Source: a virus
Reading direction: 5' to 3' (one strand)
IMG/VR virus record: IMGVR_UViG_3300030109_003755
Span: 1 to 33,183 of that record
Length of the DNA: 33,183 nt
In this document: positions 4,697 to 23,353 of the stretch, in pieces
Layout of the letters: every line of letters begins with the position of its first letter
Position numbering within the stretch: the stretch's first letter is position 1
The notes under the pieces: model-generated
The model's input: only the letters and a program-made list of their open reading frames with translations
Told to the model about the DNA's origin: nothing
Database searches by the model: none
Translations under genes and position numbers: made by a program

Positions 4697-6186
4697 TAAG
4701 TTCTAAATGGATTATTGAACGTAATAGGATTTAATGCCCGTATACCACCCGTGCCCGTTGCAACTGTCGAAGGTGTGAAAGGTCCAGGTTGAAATGGTGG
4801 ATTGCGATCCGTAGGGAACCTTAAAAATCCAGTGCCCTCGCTTGGATCTTCAATAATCGTGCACTTACCATCAATTAACATATAACCCTCGGGACACGGA
4901 TCATCTGGTTTTTTTGCCGTTTTCTTTTTGGCTTGTGTTTCGTTGTCATCGGATCTTTGTTCTTGAGCGTTTGGATCTACACCCTCAACCAATCTTCCAG
5001 ACGCATCCCTTATTCCAATAACCATTCCGCTATTATCTTTAATTAATTGACTATCTGGAATTCTTGCATTTATTCTTTTATTATATTCTTCAATGGTCTC
5101 TTTGTCTTTTGCCATATTAGGTGCAGTAAAATTAAACCCTTCAACCACGCCTACGGGTCTTCCTAAAGCAATTGCAGTCGCCATTCTATCTTTCGATATT
5201 CTTTCTGGATCTAATGCACCCAAAACAGATGGTATACCCGCTCTTTCAAGTAATGTGGGTTCTTGTAACCTTTCCATTTGTTCAAGTCTTTCAACATCAA
5301 AAGGCTTCCCAACATTTGGATCGAAAGGATCTTCTACTCCAGTGGCCGTGGTTCGAGTGCCTGGCGTTCTTGCTCCAAGTGCAGTCTCAGTAATATTAGA
5401 TCTATTTCTTTCAGCTATCTCCGTAGCTTCATCAACATCAAAATCTGCACCACTTGTCCCTGGTGCACCAAGCATCATGTAATTTATCCCATCTGGAATA
5501 TTTGGATCTCGACCAACTTGTTCTTCATAATTAGATGGAATTGATGAAGTTGGGGCAGTTACACCAAAGTCAATGCCTCTTGGATCTCCCATTCCCGCAC
5601 CTTTATCTCTTGCTTGATTTAAAGTTTGTGCAAGTGCAGCTAGACCTCGTTCTTGTTGTGTTTGTGGAGCAAGTCTGTCAACAGCTACTGCAGCAGGTAA
5701 AAAAGATTGCACTGTCACTGGATTACCAAACGCATCAAAACTCGGAGTGCCTCTAGCCTCTGGAGTCGTGGGTGCCGCACCTAGTGCCTCGACCATCGTG
5801 TCTGAACGTGACTGCATGGTCATTGGATCAAAAATATCAGATACACCAACACCAGAAAATGTAGGAGAGGTTCCCGCTGCTTGAACAGATGGAACACTAA
5901 CAGCAGTCGAATCTATAAAATCTTCTGGAGTGGATGTCGTGTCATCACTACCCGCACCACCTTGTGTGGTTTGTGCAAAATTAGAAGCCGACATAAAATT
6001 AGAGGGTTCTAAACCTCTTGCCTCTAAATTGTCCGCAGTGAATTGTGCATCATAAGTACTAGAATTAACAATATTACTTCTTGATTGATTGTTATCGTCA
6101 CCAGTTGCTGCCGCAACTTCGGCATCAGATAATCCCATATTCGCATCATAGCTATCACTTGTATCTTCTGAACCACTATCGCCCAT
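4696..6186 (-). CDS. Large low-complexity phage protein with Cys-pair and GGIRAL tail
   Basis: 496 aa from ATG 6186. A TTG two codons upstream (6192) is possible, but AGGAAGG lies 7 nt before the ATG and decides the start. The protein is rich in Asp, Ser, Thr, Pro and Gly and looks largely disordered, with recurrent PDG/DPF-type segments. Near the C-terminus is DPCPEGYMLIDGKCTI, a small two-cysteine motif, and the end has GGIRALNPITFNNPFRT. The GGIR(A/T)L string also occurs in two virion-module proteins at the other end of the window. It lies directly upstream of TerL and overlaps the upstream gene by 11 bp. A scaffold, decoration or internal virion role is possible; none is proven. Confidence 0.75.
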   Translation of the reverse strand: MGDSGSEDTSDSYDANMGLSDAEVAAATGDDNNQSRSNIVNSSTYDAQFTADNLEARGLEPSNFMSASNFAQTTQGGAGSDDTTSTPEDFIDSTAVSVPSVQAAGTSPTFSGVGVSDIFDPMTMQSRSDTMVEALGAAPTTPEARGTPSFDAFGNPVTVQSFLPAAVAVDRLAPQTQQERGLAALAQTLNQARDKGAGMGDPRGIDFGVTAPTSSIPSNYEEQVGRDPNIPDGINYMMLGAPGTSGADFDVDEATEIAERNRSNITETALGARTPGTRTTATGVEDPFDPNVGKPFDVERLEQMERLQEPTLLERAGIPSVLGALDPERISKDRMATAIALGRPVGVVEGFNFTAPNMAKDKETIEEYNKRINARIPDSQLIKDNSGMVIGIRDASGRLVEGVDPNAQEQRSDDNETQAKKKTAKKPDDPCPEGYMLIDGKCTIIEDPSEGTGFLRFPTDRNPPFQPGPFTPSTVATGTGGIRALNPITFNNPFRT

Positions 6187-6598
6187 GATCAATCCTTCCT
6201 GCGTTGCTAATTTTGTTCGGTCTATTCCAGTAAGCTCGTTTATGACCAGTATATTTCATTATATTCTCTGTCAAAAATGTCCTCATGTCTCTTGCAATAT
6301 AAAGTACATTATTTTGGGAGCACATGTCAATAACCCAAACTTGCTCTCCATTATTCCTGGCAAACGCATCATGATTGAAAGTTCTATTGACCGCCTCGTC
6401 CTTAGTCAAAAATGTCCATGTCGCAAAGCCAACAAGCGTATTTTGGTTGCGGTACAGTCTTATCTTGCCATGCATGATAGATGGTAAAAATTTTCTGCGT
6501 AATTCTGCTATACGCTGATTGCTATAAAACGGGAATCTGGATGCCATCTCCATGACTTCGCCCAACAAATGAAAACCAGAATGATTTAAATCGTACAT
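6176..6598 (-). CDS. HlyC-like toxin-activating lysine-acyltransferase family protein
   Basis: 140 aa from ATG 6598, chosen because AGAGG lies 9 nt upstream; a TTG at 6658 would add 20 Pro-rich residues but has no ribosome site. The fold pattern follows HlyC/RTX acyltransferases: LGEVMEMAS, FLPSI, VGFATWTFLTKDEA, then GEQVWVIDMC and RDMRTFL, in the same order and spacing. Family members transfer a fatty acyl chain from acyl-ACP to lysines. The conserved Asp is present (D91), but the position of the catalytic His aligns with Tyr25. Small HlyC-like proteins are known near packaging genes of marine phages; their target is unknown. Here it is the first gene of the packaging cluster. Confidence 0.65.
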   Translation of the reverse strand: MYDLNHSGFHLLGEVMEMASRFPFYSNQRIAELRRKFLPSIMHGKIRLYRNQNTLVGFATWTFLTKDEAVNRTFNHDAFARNNGEQVWVIDMCSQNNVLYIARDMRTFLTENIMKYTGHKRAYWNRPNKISNAGRIDHGR

Positions 6599-6747
6599 AA
6601 ATTTTTGCCTCTGGGACTCCAACTTGGTAAAAGTATCAGAAAAAGGGGGTGGGGGCAACCCAATGAAAATACCCCCAAATGAATTTATCAGACTAGCATT
6701 TTATGTGTGTCTCTATAAAAAGGCCCGCCCGATTTCGGGGTCATGGG

Positions 6748-13228: not shown

Positions 13229-13443
13229 TGACATTACAAAAACGAATCAATCATTTACGATGTCTATATGAGGAGCATGATAGATTAACAAATACATCCA
13301 AGGACAAAATTGCAAATGCCGAATATCGTGGTGTAATGTTAGGTCTTGATATGGTTATAGACTTAGCCGAATCAATAAAAGAATTTGAGACTGATATAAA
13401 AAAAATAAAAGGCAAAGGTTCCAGGAGCTGGTGGCATGTTTAA
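13228..13443 (+). CDS. Small helical hypothetical protein (71 aa)
   Basis: 71 aa starting in a TAATG overlap. Predicted two-helix hairpin: QKRINHLRCLYEEHDRLTN and DMVIDLAESIKEFETDIKKIKGK. The spacing IANAEYRGVMLGL fits the turn. The C-terminus is SRSWWHV. No family recognised; possibly a coiled-coil dimer. Confidence 0.6.
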   Translation: MTLQKRINHLRCLYEEHDRLTNTSKDKIANAEYRGVMLGLDMVIDLAESIKEFETDIKKIKGKGSRSWWHV

Positions 13444-13636
13444 AGCAATGGCATTGATATGCACAGTTTGGATTGTTGATGGTAAACCTAAACAAGAATG
13501 TTTAACACATATGTTTAAGTGGGAGTTTGAATCTCGGCAGCAATGTGAATTAAGGTTAATTAATTATAGGATTTACAATTTGCCTAAAAATCAAAAGATA
13601 ATTTTAGACGATTGTATTCGAGTAAAAAAATCATAA
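13436..13636 (+). CDS. Small Cys protein with hydrophobic N-terminus (66 aa)
   Basis: 66 aa. The start MFKAMALICTVWIV is short and hydrophobic, possibly a weak signal or anchor. Four cysteines follow the pattern C9, C22, C37 and C60, with a central ESRQQCELRLINYR helix. It resembles small phage proteins with an N-terminal hydrophobic segment, a C-L-T string and a Cys in a central helix, which may be exported. It overlaps the previous gene by 8 bp and ends 6 bp inside the convergent DpdA-like gene. Confidence 0.6.
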   Translation: MFKAMALICTVWIVDGKPKQECLTHMFKWEFESRQQCELRLINYRIYNLPKNQKIILDDCIRVKKS

Positions 13637-14317
13637 ATCAATTAGATTCAGTTGCTTTGTTTTTATTTCATTCCAACGAATAGGACACTGCACTGAATCT
13701 ATTTCTCTTGCCATTTTTTCGGGACATCGTTTATTACTTTTATAGTTTCGAGATACATTGACCGAATCAGCAGATGCAAAAGGATAATGTTTGCCCGACA
13801 TGTTTAATCCTCTTAACATATGTATCCAGGGTAAAGTTTTAAATTTTTTATCTAACATGTTGAAAGCCTCATTAACTCGCTCCTCCCAGAATACAGACCC
13901 GACTTGCCAATATTGTCCGCTACTCCCGAAACAAACCTTTGGATAATTTTCACACAAATATATCAGGTAATCCAGACCTAGATGCAAGTGCCAGACAGGC
14001 ACCCCGAAATATTTTGAATACGGCCAAGTGCTTAAAAATTCTTTATTTTGTTTTTCATCACCCCCGATAATATCAGGTATGACGGCCCAATGTGGATGTG
14101 CAATTTTATCTTGTAACCAATCGTAGTAAGCCTGGTGATCAAACACCTTGCCGCTCGTGTAAGTAGTAAAGGCACCATTGTCCCACATGACACTTTGTCC
14201 TATTTCCAAACATGTTTTTGCATCCCTGGAATCAGCAAAGGACACACAAAAATGTTTACCTGCCATTTTGTAAAGGTTTTCTTTTGGTGTTAAAGGTGTG
14301 CCATGGTAATGTATCAT
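13631..14317 (-). CDS. dpdA: DpdA-like TGT-superfamily transglycosylase (7-deazaguanine into DNA)
   Basis: 228 aa. The sequence has a TIM-barrel strand pattern of tRNA-guanine transglycosylase relatives: VMWDNGAFTTY (about 43-53, with the D-x-G-x-F active-site loop), WAVIPDIIGG (77-86), PVWHLHLG, VCFGSSGQY, WIHMLRGLNM (164-173) and YPFASADSVNV (178-188, second Asp). It is much shorter than bacterial Tgt (about 370 aa) and lacks the C-terminal zinc domain. Its place directly after queC, queE and queD (ATGA overlap with queC) makes DpdA, which exchanges guanine in DNA for preQ0, the best reading. A small tRNA-type Tgt paralogue is an alternative. Confidence 0.7.
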   Translation of the reverse strand: MIHYHGTPLTPKENLYKMAGKHFCVSFADSRDAKTCLEIGQSVMWDNGAFTTYTSGKVFDHQAYYDWLQDKIAHPHWAVIPDIIGGDEKQNKEFLSTWPYSKYFGVPVWHLHLGLDYLIYLCENYPKVCFGSSGQYWQVGSVFWEERVNEAFNMLDKKFKTLPWIHMLRGLNMSGKHYPFASADSVNVSRNYKSNKRCPEKMAREIDSVQCPIRWNEIKTKQLNLIDL

Positions 14318-14862
14318 GCACCTGCATCCAATCTAGTCTTACATGCTAAACATTTACCACAAGGTTGGGCAGCTCCTTCATAACAGCTATATGTTTTCGA
14401 TAAATCTATTTGATGTTTTTTAGCTAAATTTACAACTTCAGCTTTAGTCATGTGCAGTAAAGGTGTAGATATAGAAACTGGATACTCTGCTGATTCAAAA
14501 GTATTTCTTAAATGCTTGTAAAAGTCTGGTCTACAATCAGGGAATCTATCCCAATCACTCCAATTGCTACCCATATAAACAGAATTTGCCCCTATCGAGC
14601 TGGCATAACTGGCTCCTAAACAGGCAATAGTTGCATTACGGCAATTAAAAACCACATCATTACTTTTAGTTATTAAAGGTATTGATATAATTTTAAAAGG
14701 TAAACCAAAGTTATCAGCTATCTTTTCTGCATATTTTAATTCTATTTTATGTGGCTGACCATAATCTATACCTATACATGCAACAGGATTATCAGCGATG
14801 TGTAGACACACAGTACTGTCTATTCCTCCACTTAACATCACAACACTAGTTTTTTTGATCAT
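14314..14862 (-). CDS. queC: 7-cyano-7-deazaguanine (preQ0) synthase
   Basis: 182 aa, somewhat shorter than cellular QueC (about 220-230). It carries the PP-loop SGGIDST (11-17), the ACIGIDYGQPHKIE strand-helix typical of QueC, and NCRNA at 73-77. It also has the C-terminal zinc site with Cys160, 168, 171 and 174 in SCYEGAAQPCGKCLACKTR. The enzyme uses ATP and ammonia to convert CDG to preQ0. It lies 3 nt downstream of queE and overlaps dpdA by 4 nt. With QueD and QueE it gives three of the four preQ0 steps; GTP cyclohydrolase I (FolE) would come from the host. Confidence 0.9.
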   Translation of the reverse strand: MIKKTSVVMLSGGIDSTVCLHIADNPVACIGIDYGQPHKIELKYAEKIADNFGLPFKIISIPLITKSNDVVFNCRNATIACLGASYASSIGANSVYMGSNWSDWDRFPDCRPDFYKHLRNTFESAEYPVSISTPLLHMTKAEVVNLAKKHQIDLSKTYSCYEGAAQPCGKCLACKTRLDAGA

Positions 14863-14864
14863 AT

Positions 14865-15539
14865 TTACCTCATGTTAATAAATTTATGGGTTTGCAAACT
14901 TAAATTAAAATTTTCTTTCATAGCTAATTCAACACATAAATCAGTTGATTTTTTACTTTGACTTAGTGGCTGCAACCAAATTCTAATATTTTTAAAATCA
15001 TACCGATCAAGTATTTGCATCAAATTATCAATATGCTTTTGTTTACCAATTGGAAATTTAATTTCATTTGCTCTCTTATAACTTGATTCTAAGACAGTAT
15101 ATCCCCCTGCCATTCCAATTTTAGGACTTAATGTAACCCATGTCCGAGGATCACAGTTAATCTCATGAGTTCCACTCGTTTCTATTTGTGTACTAAATCT
15201 TTTAGTATCATGTAATTGTTTTGTAATTGTTGTAAGATCATAGAGACATGGTTCTCCACCCGTAAATACAATGTGATTAGCTGTGTTTTGTTGACACAAA
15301 CTTAATATCTCTTGTGTAGTTAGATTTATATAAGTAGGAGTATCTCTATTATTTTCGTTTTTAATTTCATAAATATTGTTAGTTTCATTTGTATCATCAA
15401 CATACCAGGTGTATTTAGTATCACAAAACCCACATCCTACAGGACAACCTTGCAATCTAATAAAAAAAGATGGAGTTCCAACAAAGGTTGCCTCGCCTTG
15501 TATTGTTGAAAAAAATTCATTAACAAATATTTTAGTCAT
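14865..15539 (-). CDS. queE: 7-carboxy-7-deazaguanine synthase (radical SAM)
   Basis: 224 aa. The N-terminus VNEFFSTIQGEATFVGTPSFFIRLQ is characteristic. The iron-sulfur cysteines are Cys32, 36 and 39 in GCPVGCGFCDTKYTW (CX3CX2C), as in Escherichia coli QueE. FTGGEP binds SAM; TWVTLSPK and IRIWLQPLS close the barrel. It converts 6-carboxytetrahydropterin to CDG. It overlaps the queD stop by 8 bp. No truncation or key substitution was seen. Confidence 0.9.
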   Translation of the reverse strand: MTKIFVNEFFSTIQGEATFVGTPSFFIRLQGCPVGCGFCDTKYTWYVDDTNETNNIYEIKNENNRDTPTYINLTTQEILSLCQQNTANHIVFTGGEPCLYDLTTITKQLHDTKRFSTQIETSGTHEINCDPRTWVTLSPKIGMAGGYTVLESSYKRANEIKFPIGKQKHIDNLMQILDRYDFKNIRIWLQPLSQSKKSTDLCVELAMKENFNLSLQTHKFINMR

Positions 15540-15987
15540 CTCTATGACCTATTCTCATGGCCATATTACTATCGGTCTCTCTTACCTCAACTTTGTTACA
15601 CCAGATTCTGTGCTGTTCACTGTAACTAGGTAAAAAAATTGTATTAACATAATCGTATAAAAATTCTGCTATACCCTCACATCCAGTTTTTTCTACTTCT
15701 GTTATGTTAGCTATACCTAACTCACTCATTCTTTTTAAATCTTTGTAATGTGGATCATCTAATGCAACTAATAATTTATGATCAAACCATTCTTCAAGTT
15801 TTTCTTTTAATGGTTTAAGGCCACCAAAATCCATTACCCAATCTCGTGCATCTAATGTATCTGTTTCAAATTCAAAATGAAACGACAGACAGTATCCATG
15901 AATTTTATTACAATGACTGTCTGCTTTCCATTGCCTATAAGCAACGGGTGCAATTTGATTATAAGATTTAGTAGATATATATTTCAT
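15532..15987 (-). CDS. queD: 6-carboxytetrahydropterin synthase-like protein
   Basis: 151 aa. QueD signatures are DSHCNKIHGYCLSF (23-36, catalytic Cys26), WVMDFGGLKPLK (50-61), EWFDHKLLV (66-74) and EVRETD near the C-terminus. The usual zinc motif HGH reads HGY here, so one ligand differs; His25 next to the Cys might compensate. This form resembles other phage QueD variants. The enzyme makes the pterin precursor for QueE. It follows the 49-aa ORF by 2 nt and starts the QueD-E-C-DpdA series. Confidence 0.85.
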   Translation of the reverse strand: MKYISTKSYNQIAPVAYRQWKADSHCNKIHGYCLSFHFEFETDTLDARDWVMDFGGLKPLKEKLEEWFDHKLLVALDDPHYKDLKRMSELGIANITEVEKTGCEGIAEFLYDYVNTIFLPSYSEQHRIWCNKVEVRETDSNMAMRIGHRDD

Positions 15988-15989
15988 AG

Positions 15990-16139
15990 TTATTCATCAT
16001 CTTCAAATTCAAACTCTATAAAAAATTCATCGTCATCATCTTCAAGAACAGTTGTAGTTGATTTAATATCTTTTATTTTTTGTTTAGCCTGGGTAAAATT
16101 TATAACATTGTCTTCTGTTTTGGGTTTATCTTTAGCCAT
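15990..16139 (-). CDS. Small protein with acidic tail (49 aa)
   Basis: A short frame (MAKDKPKTEDNVINFTQAKQ...) preceded by GGAGAGGAGGCAAGACA, a very strong ribosome site. The first 30 residues are basic to neutral, and the last 17 are almost all acidic and aromatic (EDDDDEFFIEFEFEDDE). It overlaps the helicase 3' end by 40 bp and ends 2 nt before the queD start, so it bridges the two. No family. The tail could mimic DNA or SSB-type docking peptides, which is a guess. Confidence 0.65.
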   Translation of the reverse strand: MAKDKPKTEDNVINFTQAKQKIKDIKSTTTVLEDDDDEFFIEFEFEDDE

Positions 16140-17581
16140 TGTCTTGCCTCCTCTCCTAATACTTTAGCACCAATATCTATCTTATCTCTTAGAGCTTTCA
16201 CAATTTTTTCATCAATTGTATTTTCTGCAATTAAATCTATATATGTCACTTTGTTAGTTTGACCAATACGATGACATCGATCTTCAGACTGCATTCTAGT
16301 TTCAAGATTAAAATCATTTGCATAATAAACGACAGTATTCGCTTGGTTCAAAGTTATGCCATATCCAGCAGTCGATGGATTACCGACAAAAAATCTCATG
16401 GGATTATCTTGATCTTCAAAAGCCTCAATGACCCGAACTCTTTCTTCCTGAGTTGTATCTCCAAAATATGTTCCAACAGAATCTTTACCATATAGAAGTT
16501 CTAATTTGTTTTTTATTGTAAGGATATCATATCTAAACCTGGAGTAGATGAGTATCTTGCCTGACACTTCATCACATATGTTAAGTAGTTCTGTTAACCT
16601 ATTGGTTTTAAAATCAATTATGGTTCCTTCATCTGTTTTTAAATGTCCTGATAATATTTGTTGCAATCGTAACATTTGAGTAATGATCATGGGTGCGGTG
16701 ACAGTTGCTGCAACGTCAAGTAACAAGACAGCCTCCCTTTGTATCTTGTCATACATTTTCTTTTGTTCATCGGTTAATTCAATAAAACGTGTAGTGTAAA
16801 TTTTATCAGGCAAATCAAGACAATTTACTTTTAACACTCTAAATATATTTGGATCAATTTTACCAAGCAGCTCATTTAATCTTTTGTAGCCAACAATTTG
16901 TTGAAAGGTATGCGATCCAAGACTCCTTTTTAAAATGTTAGCATGGCGATTAAGAAAAGAATAATAACTTTTGAAGTTCAAGATCCCTGGGTCAAGGAAC
17001 TCGAACTGAGACCATAGGTCCAAAGGCGATTTGGTTACAGGCGATCCTGTAAGTAAACGTTTATAGGCAAACTCCCGACCTATCTTTATCAAGGATTTAG
17101 TTCGTTTAGCTTTGTGATTCTTGATAGTTGTTGATTCATCTATGGCAATAAGACCCCGACCACCAAACTTTTTAGCCATCCAATTACCCGCCTTGATTCC
17201 TCGTGCACTAGAGAATGCCTCAACATTCATAACAAATATTCTAAGAGCAGTTGTAGATGTTTTAAAAAATTCATTTAATTTTTTTTCATACATTTTATTT
17301 GAATTGGACTGCCAGAATAATAGCTTATATTCTATGTCATCAGATAAATGTGTAGGTATTTCTTTCTGCACCCAATTGCGATACACACCCTTAGGAGCAA
17401 GTATCAAAGCAAAATTTATTTTTTTGTTGTGACGTAAATAGGCAATGTTATCGATTAATACTTTAGACTTACCTGTACCCATTTCCATAAAAAACCCAAA
17501 GAGTCCCATGTCTTTTGCTTTGTCCAATGCATCTATTTGATGATTATATGGTTTTGTTTTCATTATGTGGTTGACATCCAT
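16100..17581 (-). CDS. SNF2/DEAD-like superfamily 2 helicase
   Basis: 493 aa. Motif I is MGTGKS (34-39); motif Ia is LILAPKGVYRNW; motif II is AIDEST (146-151) instead of the usual DEAH; motif III is LLTGSP. The second RecA domain has GKILIYSRF, the GYGITLNQANTVVYY strand and motif VI QSEDRCHRIGQ (the typical SNF2 DR(C/A)HRIGQ). No extra DNA-binding or nuclease domain is visible. It may remodel protein-DNA complexes or aid replication or recombination. ATG 17581 has AGGAGG 6 nt upstream. It leads the - strand transcript containing the queuosine-type genes. Confidence 0.9.
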   Translation of the reverse strand: MDVNHIMKTKPYNHQIDALDKAKDMGLFGFFMEMGTGKSKVLIDNIAYLRHNKKINFALILAPKGVYRNWVQKEIPTHLSDDIEYKLLFWQSNSNKMYEKKLNEFFKTSTTALRIFVMNVEAFSSARGIKAGNWMAKKFGGRGLIAIDESTTIKNHKAKRTKSLIKIGREFAYKRLLTGSPVTKSPLDLWSQFEFLDPGILNFKSYYSFLNRHANILKRSLGSHTFQQIVGYKRLNELLGKIDPNIFRVLKVNCLDLPDKIYTTRFIELTDEQKKMYDKIQREAVLLLDVAATVTAPMIITQMLRLQQILSGHLKTDEGTIIDFKTNRLTELLNICDEVSGKILIYSRFRYDILTIKNKLELLYGKDSVGTYFGDTTQEERVRVIEAFEDQDNPMRFFVGNPSTAGYGITLNQANTVVYYANDFNLETRMQSEDRCHRIGQTNKVTYIDLIAENTIDEKIVKALRDKIDIGAKVLGEEARQWLKINPKQKTML

Positions 17582-22261: not shown

Positions 22262-22530
22262 AAAGAGATGATATTTTAAAGAATGCCATGAAGTTAATAA
22301 ATGGTAAACGTTCTAAAGATTACGGGGATGCACACGAAAACCACCAAAGGATAGCAGACTTGTGGTCTGTGGTGTTTGGGTTTAAAGTATTAGTGTGGCA
22401 AGTTTACTTGTGTTTAATATTGGTCAAGGTTGCAAGATTAATTAATTCTCCCAAACATTTAGACAGTATGATAGATATACCAGGATATGCGGCATTACTT
22501 GGAGAGACAATAGAAAAAGATGATAAGTAG
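22258..22530 (+). CDS. DUF6378-like small helical phage protein (90 aa)
   Basis: 90 aa. The pattern RSKDYGDAHENHQRIADLWS (18-37), then LVWQVYLCLILVKVARLINSP and HLDSMIDIPGYAALLGE matches DUF6378-type phage proteins. They have an all-helical fold reminiscent of NTP pyrophosphohydrolases; the activity is unproven. It starts in an ATGA overlap with the helicase stop. A nucleotide-metabolism role would fit the position before the polymerase. Confidence 0.65.
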   Translation: MKRDDILKNAMKLINGKRSKDYGDAHENHQRIADLWSVVFGFKVLVWQVYLCLILVKVARLINSPKHLDSMIDIPGYAALLGETIEKDDK

Positions 22531-23353
22531 TTTATTCAAACCACATCCTAATCCAACAATGAGGGTTATAAGTTTAGGTGCAGGTGTACAATCATCCGTT
22601 ATGGCTTTGATGGCTGAACGAGGTGAGATTACACCCAAGCCAGATTGTGCCGTTTTTGCTGACACACAATCAGAACCCGAGGAGGTTTACACACATCTTG
22701 AGTGGCTATCTACACAACTATCTTATCCAATATATCAAACGACTGCAGGTGATTTACGTAAAAGTATTACTGAAGGCATTAACATCAGAGGCACAAACAA
22801 AAACTATTGTGTTGTCCCCTTTCATGTCAAAGATGGTTTTGGACGTAGACAATGCACTACACAGTTTAAGATCGAACCTATACAGAAAAAGTTTAGAGAA
22901 CTACTTGGTGTTAAGAAGAATCACAAAGTTAAACAAGGTGTTATACTTGAGCAATGGATTGGTATCAGTCAAGACGAGCTACAACGTGTTAAAGAATCTA
23001 GAGACAAGTGGTTGTATAATAGATGGCCATTATTAGAACTTGGCATGAAACGATATGATTGTCAGAATTGGTTTGCTAAATACTATCCCGAGAAGTACTT
23101 ACCACGATCTGCTTGTACATTCTGTCCGTACAAAAATAATAATGAATGGCGACACCTAAGAGATAACGATCCACAAGGTTGGGAAGATGCGGTGGCCGTG
23201 GATAAAAAAATAAGAACTACAGGTACAGATAAACAAAGAGAGCAATTTGTTCACAGATCATTAGTGCCCTTAGATCAAGCCGACCTACAAACAGCAGAAG
23301 AGAAAGGGCAACTATCATTCTTAGATGAGTGTGATGGTATGTGTGGTATGTAA
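22520..23353 (+). CDS. PAPS-reductase-like PP-loop family protein
   Basis: 277 aa. The PP-loop is SLGAGVQSSVMALM (18-31), and ADTQSEP follows (47-53). A cysteine-rich region has RRQCTTQFKIEPI and SACTFCPYKNNNEWR, and the C-terminus is LDECDGMCGM. This is the phage branch of the phosphoadenosine phosphosulfate reductase superfamily, which includes DndC-like DNA phosphorothioation proteins. Substrate and reaction are unknown here. No dnd partner genes are visible. The start overlaps the previous gene by 11 bp. An ATG at 22559 is an alternative start but has no ribosome site. Confidence 0.75.
   Translation: MISSLFKPHPNPTMRVISLGAGVQSSVMALMAERGEITPKPDCAVFADTQSEPEEVYTHLEWLSTQLSYPIYQTTAGDLRKSITEGINIRGTNKNYCVVPFHVKDGFGRRQCTTQFKIEPIQKKFRELLGVKKNHKVKQGVILEQWIGISQDELQRVKESRDKWLYNRWPLLELGMKRYDCQNWFAKYYPEKYLPRSACTFCPYKNNNEWRHLRDNDPQGWEDAVAVDKKIRTTGTDKQREQFVHRSLVPLDQADLQTAEEKGQLSFLDECDGMCGM

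Follow-up and report, generated by a model that had tools for sequence, protein, structure and literature searches.

How does a phage with a short DpdA-type transglycosylase obtain the 7-deazaguanine base that this enzyme would insert into DNA, and can the source of the base change between close relatives? These questions are raised by a locus of an uncultured phage in a 33,183-bp virus record fragment from IMG/VR (IMGVR_UViG_3300030109_003755, positions 1 to 33,183), the whole of which is referred to as the window in this study. A first-pass annotation had placed a DpdA-QueC-QueE-QueD cluster at 13631-15987, and all four open reading frames are present there on the minus strand with strong family matches (Table 1). 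The genes are as compactly joined as had been described: DpdA and QueC overlap by 4 nt, QueE and QueD overlap by 8 nt, and QueC and QueE sit 2 nt apart, while the 3' end of DpdA reaches 6 nt into a convergent small ORF (13436-13636, plus strand). This tight, co-directional four-gene operon is real and beyond chance.

Table 1. Positions of the operon genes, the exchanged segment and the conserved flank in the window. L003 and L007 are related IMG/VR phages.
Feature	Position	Strand	Prediction or remark
DpdA, 228 aa	13631..14317	-	short TGT-like DNA guanine transglycosylase (predicted)
QueC, 182 aa, minimal form	14314..14862	-	preQ0 synthase (predicted)
QueE, 224 aa	14865..15539	-	radical-SAM 7-carboxy-7-deazaguanine synthase (predicted)
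QueD-like, 151 aa	15532..15987	-	6-carboxytetrahydropterin synthase, phage variant (predicted)
Swapped segment, 1672 bp	14318..15989	none	DNA alignment breakpoints
49-aa acidic ORF, directly upstream of QueD	15990..16139	-	flanking homology to L003/L007 stops at its stop codon
SNF2-family helicase, conserved flank	16100..17581	-	91% protein identity in L003/L007

The proteins of the window resemble those of Pelagibacter phages and also of a gammaproteobacterial phage. For the named isolates nearest by polymerase and terminase (HTVC023P, 023Pt_psg01 and DSL-LC04), the annotation of the regions read includes neither DpdA nor Que genes. Elsewhere in the window, a HlyC-type acyltransferase domain (PF02794, 1e-11; 6176-6658, minus strand) adjoins the large terminase region, and a PAPS-reductase-like PP-loop protein (phrog_424) is encoded at 22520-23353 on the plus strand. 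Rhizobium phage RHph_N3_2 has a gene similar to the latter not far from its dpdA, and in Mae-JY30 a PP-loop gene precedes dpdA.

The route from FolE through QueD, QueE and QueC to preQ0 is established pathway biochemistry; neither FolE nor an amidotransferase was seen within the 33-kb fragment. QueE matches the TIGR04322 equivalog with 269 bits against a cut-off of 200 (1.9e-80) and carries the CxxxCxxC motif as CPVGCGFC. QueC matches PF06508 above the cut-off (1.7e-44) and reaches 142 bits with TIGR00364, slightly below the cut-off of 150. Although unusually short, it retains SGGIDS, YGQPHKIE, FNCRN, FPDC and C(x)7CxxCxxC. When set against the published signature SGGxDS, YxQxHxxE, VPxRN, YPDC and C(x)8CxxCxxC (PMC13329287), the first two elements are exact and the other three are variants. 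The zinc cysteines and the essential Tyr that follows the first of them are retained; a Y131F change in E. coli QueC leaves partial activity (PMC13329287).

The QueD protein matches PF01242 (3e-18) and phrog_2389 (8e-39), and its score with TIGR03367 is below the cut-off. The catalytic residues C26, D69-H70 and E137 are conserved in 48 variant sequences, but two of the three canonical zinc histidines are tyrosines throughout this phage variant (AYR/HGY instead of AAH/HGH). Because of these replacements and the sub-threshold TIGR03367 score, we class the protein as a QueD-like variant rather than as canonical QueD. Many of the 48 sequences are located in FolE/QueE/QueC clusters, relatives with the QueD annotation occur in ACP17, Iggy and other phages, and the window protein is 82% identical to QueD of FolE-QueD-QueE clusters. 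Within the variant motif RQW.ADSHC...HGY (window 15532-15987; L291-L370), the conserved H25 and H37 are possible substitute ligands.

DpdA matches phrog_887 (queuine tRNA-ribosyltransferase) at 1.6e-42 and has no match in Pfam or NCBIfam, PF01702 (TGT) included. Relatives of 226-276 aa in phage records (among them Pam5, RHph_X2_30, RHph_N3_2, Mae-JY30, DMCA, SEN1, MED16, Epa33 and Athena1) are 30-46% identical to it, and 244 short DpdA ORFs were found in total, mostly of 220-250 aa. The DNGAF and SADS loops pointed out in the first-pass annotation are real motifs, as D46 (DNGAF), D82, H110, H166, R169, D184-S185 (SADS) and N191 hardly vary, if at all, across 202 short DpdA proteins. Several of them (D46, H110, H166, D184 and S185), together with G48 and P179, are among the residues that also stay invariant when the DpdA proteins of phages 9g and CAjan are aligned. 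H166 aligns with His196 of 9g, the residue that distinguishes DpdA from DpdA2 (PMC6884629); the protein thus differs from the nt-1 type DpdA2, in which a histidine is absent at this position. The C.C..C zinc motif is missing from all 202 proteins, that of the window included, as well as from those of 9g and CAjan. The latter two phages, whose DNA modification has been tested, have longer enzymes (317 and 306 aa, respectively); the window protein is 17-18% identical to these and about 80-90 aa shorter. Further subfamilies, DpdA3 and DpdA4, have reportedly been defined by Cui et al. 2023.

A structural model points in the same direction. The AF2 model built from 95 sequences (pLDDT 93.3, pTM 0.89) has eight strands, with D46, H110, G131, H166 and D184 at or near the predicted strand ends of the barrel; it superseded a first model from 25 sequences that was too poor (pLDDT 64.5) for a meaningful fold search. 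Foldseek alone returned nothing below 1e-3 with the DpdA model. After structural re-alignment (VIA-align), the best rows were Cap10 (9ntn_B, Z 14.1), archaeosine TGT (13.4) and Zymomonas TGT (13.0), and the first two rows as well as most of those listed belong to the TGT family (Z 12.5-14.1 over ~200 residues). As PdxJ, a barrel of PLP synthesis, scores nearly as high (Z 13.4), the fold is best called TGT-like, and the family assignment rests also on motifs and sequence clustering. At the sequence level, the short DpdA profile aligned directly to a shallow TGT alignment did not rise above shuffled controls, and HMM searches of PDB sequences with the DpdA profiles A1 and A3 retrieved no TGT. 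Taken as modelled, the protein is a TGT-type (beta/alpha)8 barrel, and it is a genuine member of the phage DpdA/TGT lineage.

In a maximum-likelihood tree, the short DpdA proteins are separate from 9g/CAjan with a support of 100/100, which agrees with the earlier suggestion that the very short, zinc-free form represents a distinct branch. However, the branch is not new. It had been reported with Salmonella SEN1/SW9, Pantoea MED16, Pseudomonas Epa33 and Vibrio phages as a "singleton" clade (PMC8306585), and the zinc motif is missing from 9g and CAjan as well. The short zinc-free enzymes thus form a distinct yet known clade, and the DNA of one member, MED16, carries dADG (0.13% of G; PMC8306585). 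In the phages named, whose DpdA proteins are 241-276 aa long and 30-40% identical to that of the window, preQ0 synthesis genes were not seen next to dpdA, and the genomes of MED16, SEN1 and SW9 are without them (PMC8306585), whereas the window has its own QueD-QueE-QueC. With the 9g/CAjan group (DpdA1; PMC6884629) the window shares the combination of DpdA with QueC, QueE and QueD, the D, H and D positions and the missing zinc motif; it differs in the clade of its DpdA, in that no FolE was seen, and in the compact four-gene order. CAjan likewise lacks an amidotransferase, its DNA carries dPreQ0, and its dpdA is essential for the modification (PMC6884629).

The barrel is also that of tRNA-guanine transglycosylases, so the module might instead serve RNA, with QueD, QueE and QueC enlarging the preQ0/preQ1 pool for queuosine in host tRNA and the TGT-like protein acting on tRNA or another RNA. 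Such boosting of tRNA modification was proposed by Hutinet et al., albeit for phages in which pathway genes occur and DpdA does not (PMC6884629). Here DpdA is present and nearer to phage DpdA than to TGT, given its phrog_887 match and the lack of one to PF01702. Moreover, it is without the CxCxxC motif seen in several retrieved bacterial TGTs, the window has no tRNA genes, and MED16 of the same clade bears the modified base in its DNA. We therefore regard an RNA target as quite improbable. The co-occurrence of preQ0 synthesis genes with a DpdA-type transglycosylase supports, as far as sequences can, the first-pass reading of a phage module for 7-deazaguanine modification of DNA.

A minimal QueC next to a protein of TGT fold is also reminiscent of Cap9 and Cap10 of type IV CBASS (PMC11996544), in which case the minimal QueC would attach CDG to the N-terminus of a protein, and the conjugate would be bound by the barrel. 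The top structural row is Cap10, on a par with archaeosine TGT, and QueC is of Cap9 size (182 versus ~185 aa) and aligns with Cap9 from end to end. This counterpart nevertheless appears very improbable, since: QueC scores 79 bits against canonical QueC and 51 bits against Cap9; its YxQxHxxE motif and essential Tyr are intact; a search of the window fragment and of the four L043-L047 loci revealed no ORF starting with MGGS or MGTS; short QueC occurs, apart from the window, at only 4 of the 199 loci with DpdA; and L374 pairs a related short QueC with QueE. The C(x)7C zinc spacing, considered as a mark of Cap9, was rejected as it is common to long phage QueC. The window also differs from type IV CBASS in that no CD-NTase was seen, in the presence of QueD and QueE, and in the conserved Asp residues of DpdA.

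The history of the operon emerges from two close relatives, L003 and L007, which belong to the same phage group and have ~86% DNA identity to the window. Collinearity extends from 15990 to beyond 20479 at about 86%, and across 13637-14317 and on to the right at 88%, a total of about 11 kb of flanks. It breaks exactly at the stop codon of the 49-aa ORF (15990) and at the A of the dpdA ATG (14317). Between these breakpoints, the window has 1672 bp encoding QueD-QueE-QueC, while L003 has 725 bp encoding a YhhQ-type importer and a 78-aa ORF. This slot, which the first-pass annotation had overlooked, is held by the same two kinds of gene in L004-L006, and DpdA of this YhhQ-mini-DpdA group is 80-93% identical to that of the window. 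In the tree, the window DpdA is nested within the group (support of 99/90 for its pairing with the L003 contig and of 100/100 for its grouping with four members), which indicates that synthesis replaced import. GC3 is 0.17-0.20 in the Que genes, compared with 0.34 in dpdA and 0.28 in the SNF2 gene. In L003 (5896-6372) and L007 (6677-7153), an XF1762-family/Mom-like DNA-modification gene lies directly after dpdA; it is absent from the window.

Since the full gene order QueD-QueE-QueC-DpdA occurs on a single contig, and neither the QueE-QueC junction nor the junction upstream of QueD was found elsewhere, the exchange could be a chimera of assembly, each gene being real and the actual phage carrying YhhQ. 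Most likely it is not, and we consider such a chimera very improbable: its joints would have to coincide exactly with the stop codon before the segment and with the first codon of DpdA, and the genes overlap in the manner normal for phages; QueC-DpdA (L043-L047) and QueD-QueE (L053-type), the two remaining adjacencies inside the operon, are also present in independent contigs; and collinearity of the flanks runs over about 11 kb. The comparison suggests that: the window phage appears to have swapped base import for de novo synthesis; the Que cassette looks as if built from mobile parts, QueC being 81-87% identical to that of L043-L047 and the L043 DpdA only 55% identical; and the final base probably changed along with the swap.

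Supply genes beside short dpdA were surveyed at 199 distinct loci, a sample drawn by similarity and hence biased, and the majority of these loci have one. A YhhQ-type importer is present at 93 of them (65 upstream and 28 downstream of dpdA), an assignment that rests on TIGR00697 (3e-7, below the cut-off) and on 43-45% identity to the putative preQ0 transporter of CAjan; among 50,697 phage records, only 96 have a YhhQ relative. QueC, QueD or QueE is found at about 12 of the 199 loci, and the QueD-QueE-QueC set in the window only. Other orders are YhhQ-QueC-DpdA (L043-L047), DpdA-QueD (L130, L145, L316, L318), DpdA-QueE-QueD (L135) and QueE-DpdA (L172, L175). Among the genomic data, no other finding argues as strongly as these recurring pairings for the use of a 7-deazaguanine by the short clade. 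In L043-L047 (e.g., L047:4487-6232), where the importer adjoins a preQ0 synthase gene, the arrangement suggests either import of a substrate for QueC, CDG for example, or a QueC that does no more than enlarge the pool. In L053 (3882-4508) and L374 (1182-1769), a protein of 195-208 aa with DNGCF and APD motifs adjoins QueC/QueE/QueD/FolE genes and is possibly an even smaller transglycosylase family.

The second gene of the slot in the relatives is an ORF of ~80 aa (78-111 aa) that shares 4 nt with dpdA in L003 and adjoins it at 92 of the 199 loci (L003:4987-5223, L061:4714-5004, L134:1501-1746 and about 90 other short-DpdA loci). It corresponds to phrog_37496, annotated as of unknown function, and has invariant Y, C, P, Y, E, Q, E, G and H residues. 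In an HMM search of the PDB, its profile matched the archaeosine synthase QueF-Like best (5jyx, E 9e-4), with the CP cysteine and the HE/QE Glu lining up; alignment to bacterial QueF failed to match. The protein is therefore a candidate mini QueF-L, although its activity is uncertain as the Asp of the QueF-L CP....D motif falls at a different column. If it finishes preQ0 in the relatives, then the window phage has lost this step, and its base is predicted to be preQ0 or ADG. It is quite possible, though somewhat less likely than not, that the slot before short dpdA is a swappable supply-and-finish module, with YhhQ import and a hitherto unrecognised mini QueF-L giving archaeosine-like DNA in the relatives and QueD-QueE-QueC giving preQ0 or ADG in the window phage. 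In that event, near-identical phages would diverge in where their DNA base comes from and also in its chemistry.

Overall, we think it likely that the operon modifies phage DNA and that its synthesis cassette replaced import. FolE, from the host or from an unseen phage copy, would supply dihydroneopterin triphosphate, which phage QueD, QueE and QueC would convert into preQ0. Once the phage DNA has been replicated, short DpdA would replace selected guanines in it with preQ0 by the Asp-nucleophile mechanism of the TGT type, and part of the base may be finished as the amide ADG. Modified guanines would most likely protect the DNA against host restriction or another DNA-targeting defence; by analogy with MED16, their level could be trivial. 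We infer that the ancestral supply in this lineage was YhhQ import together with the tiny QueF-L-like protein, both of which would have been replaced by the de novo cassette with the slot before dpdA unchanged.

What is new here is the cassette swap, the short zinc-free DpdA clade being known. That clade, described so far mainly as one of singleton DpdA proteins whose modification status is uncertain (PMC6884629), is now strongly linked genetically to 7-deazaguanine supply, and a very small family of QueF-L-like proteins is indicated. The window phage and its relatives provide a natural pair with a local difference, the base being made in the one and imported in the other, which makes it testable how phages choose and change their DNA base.
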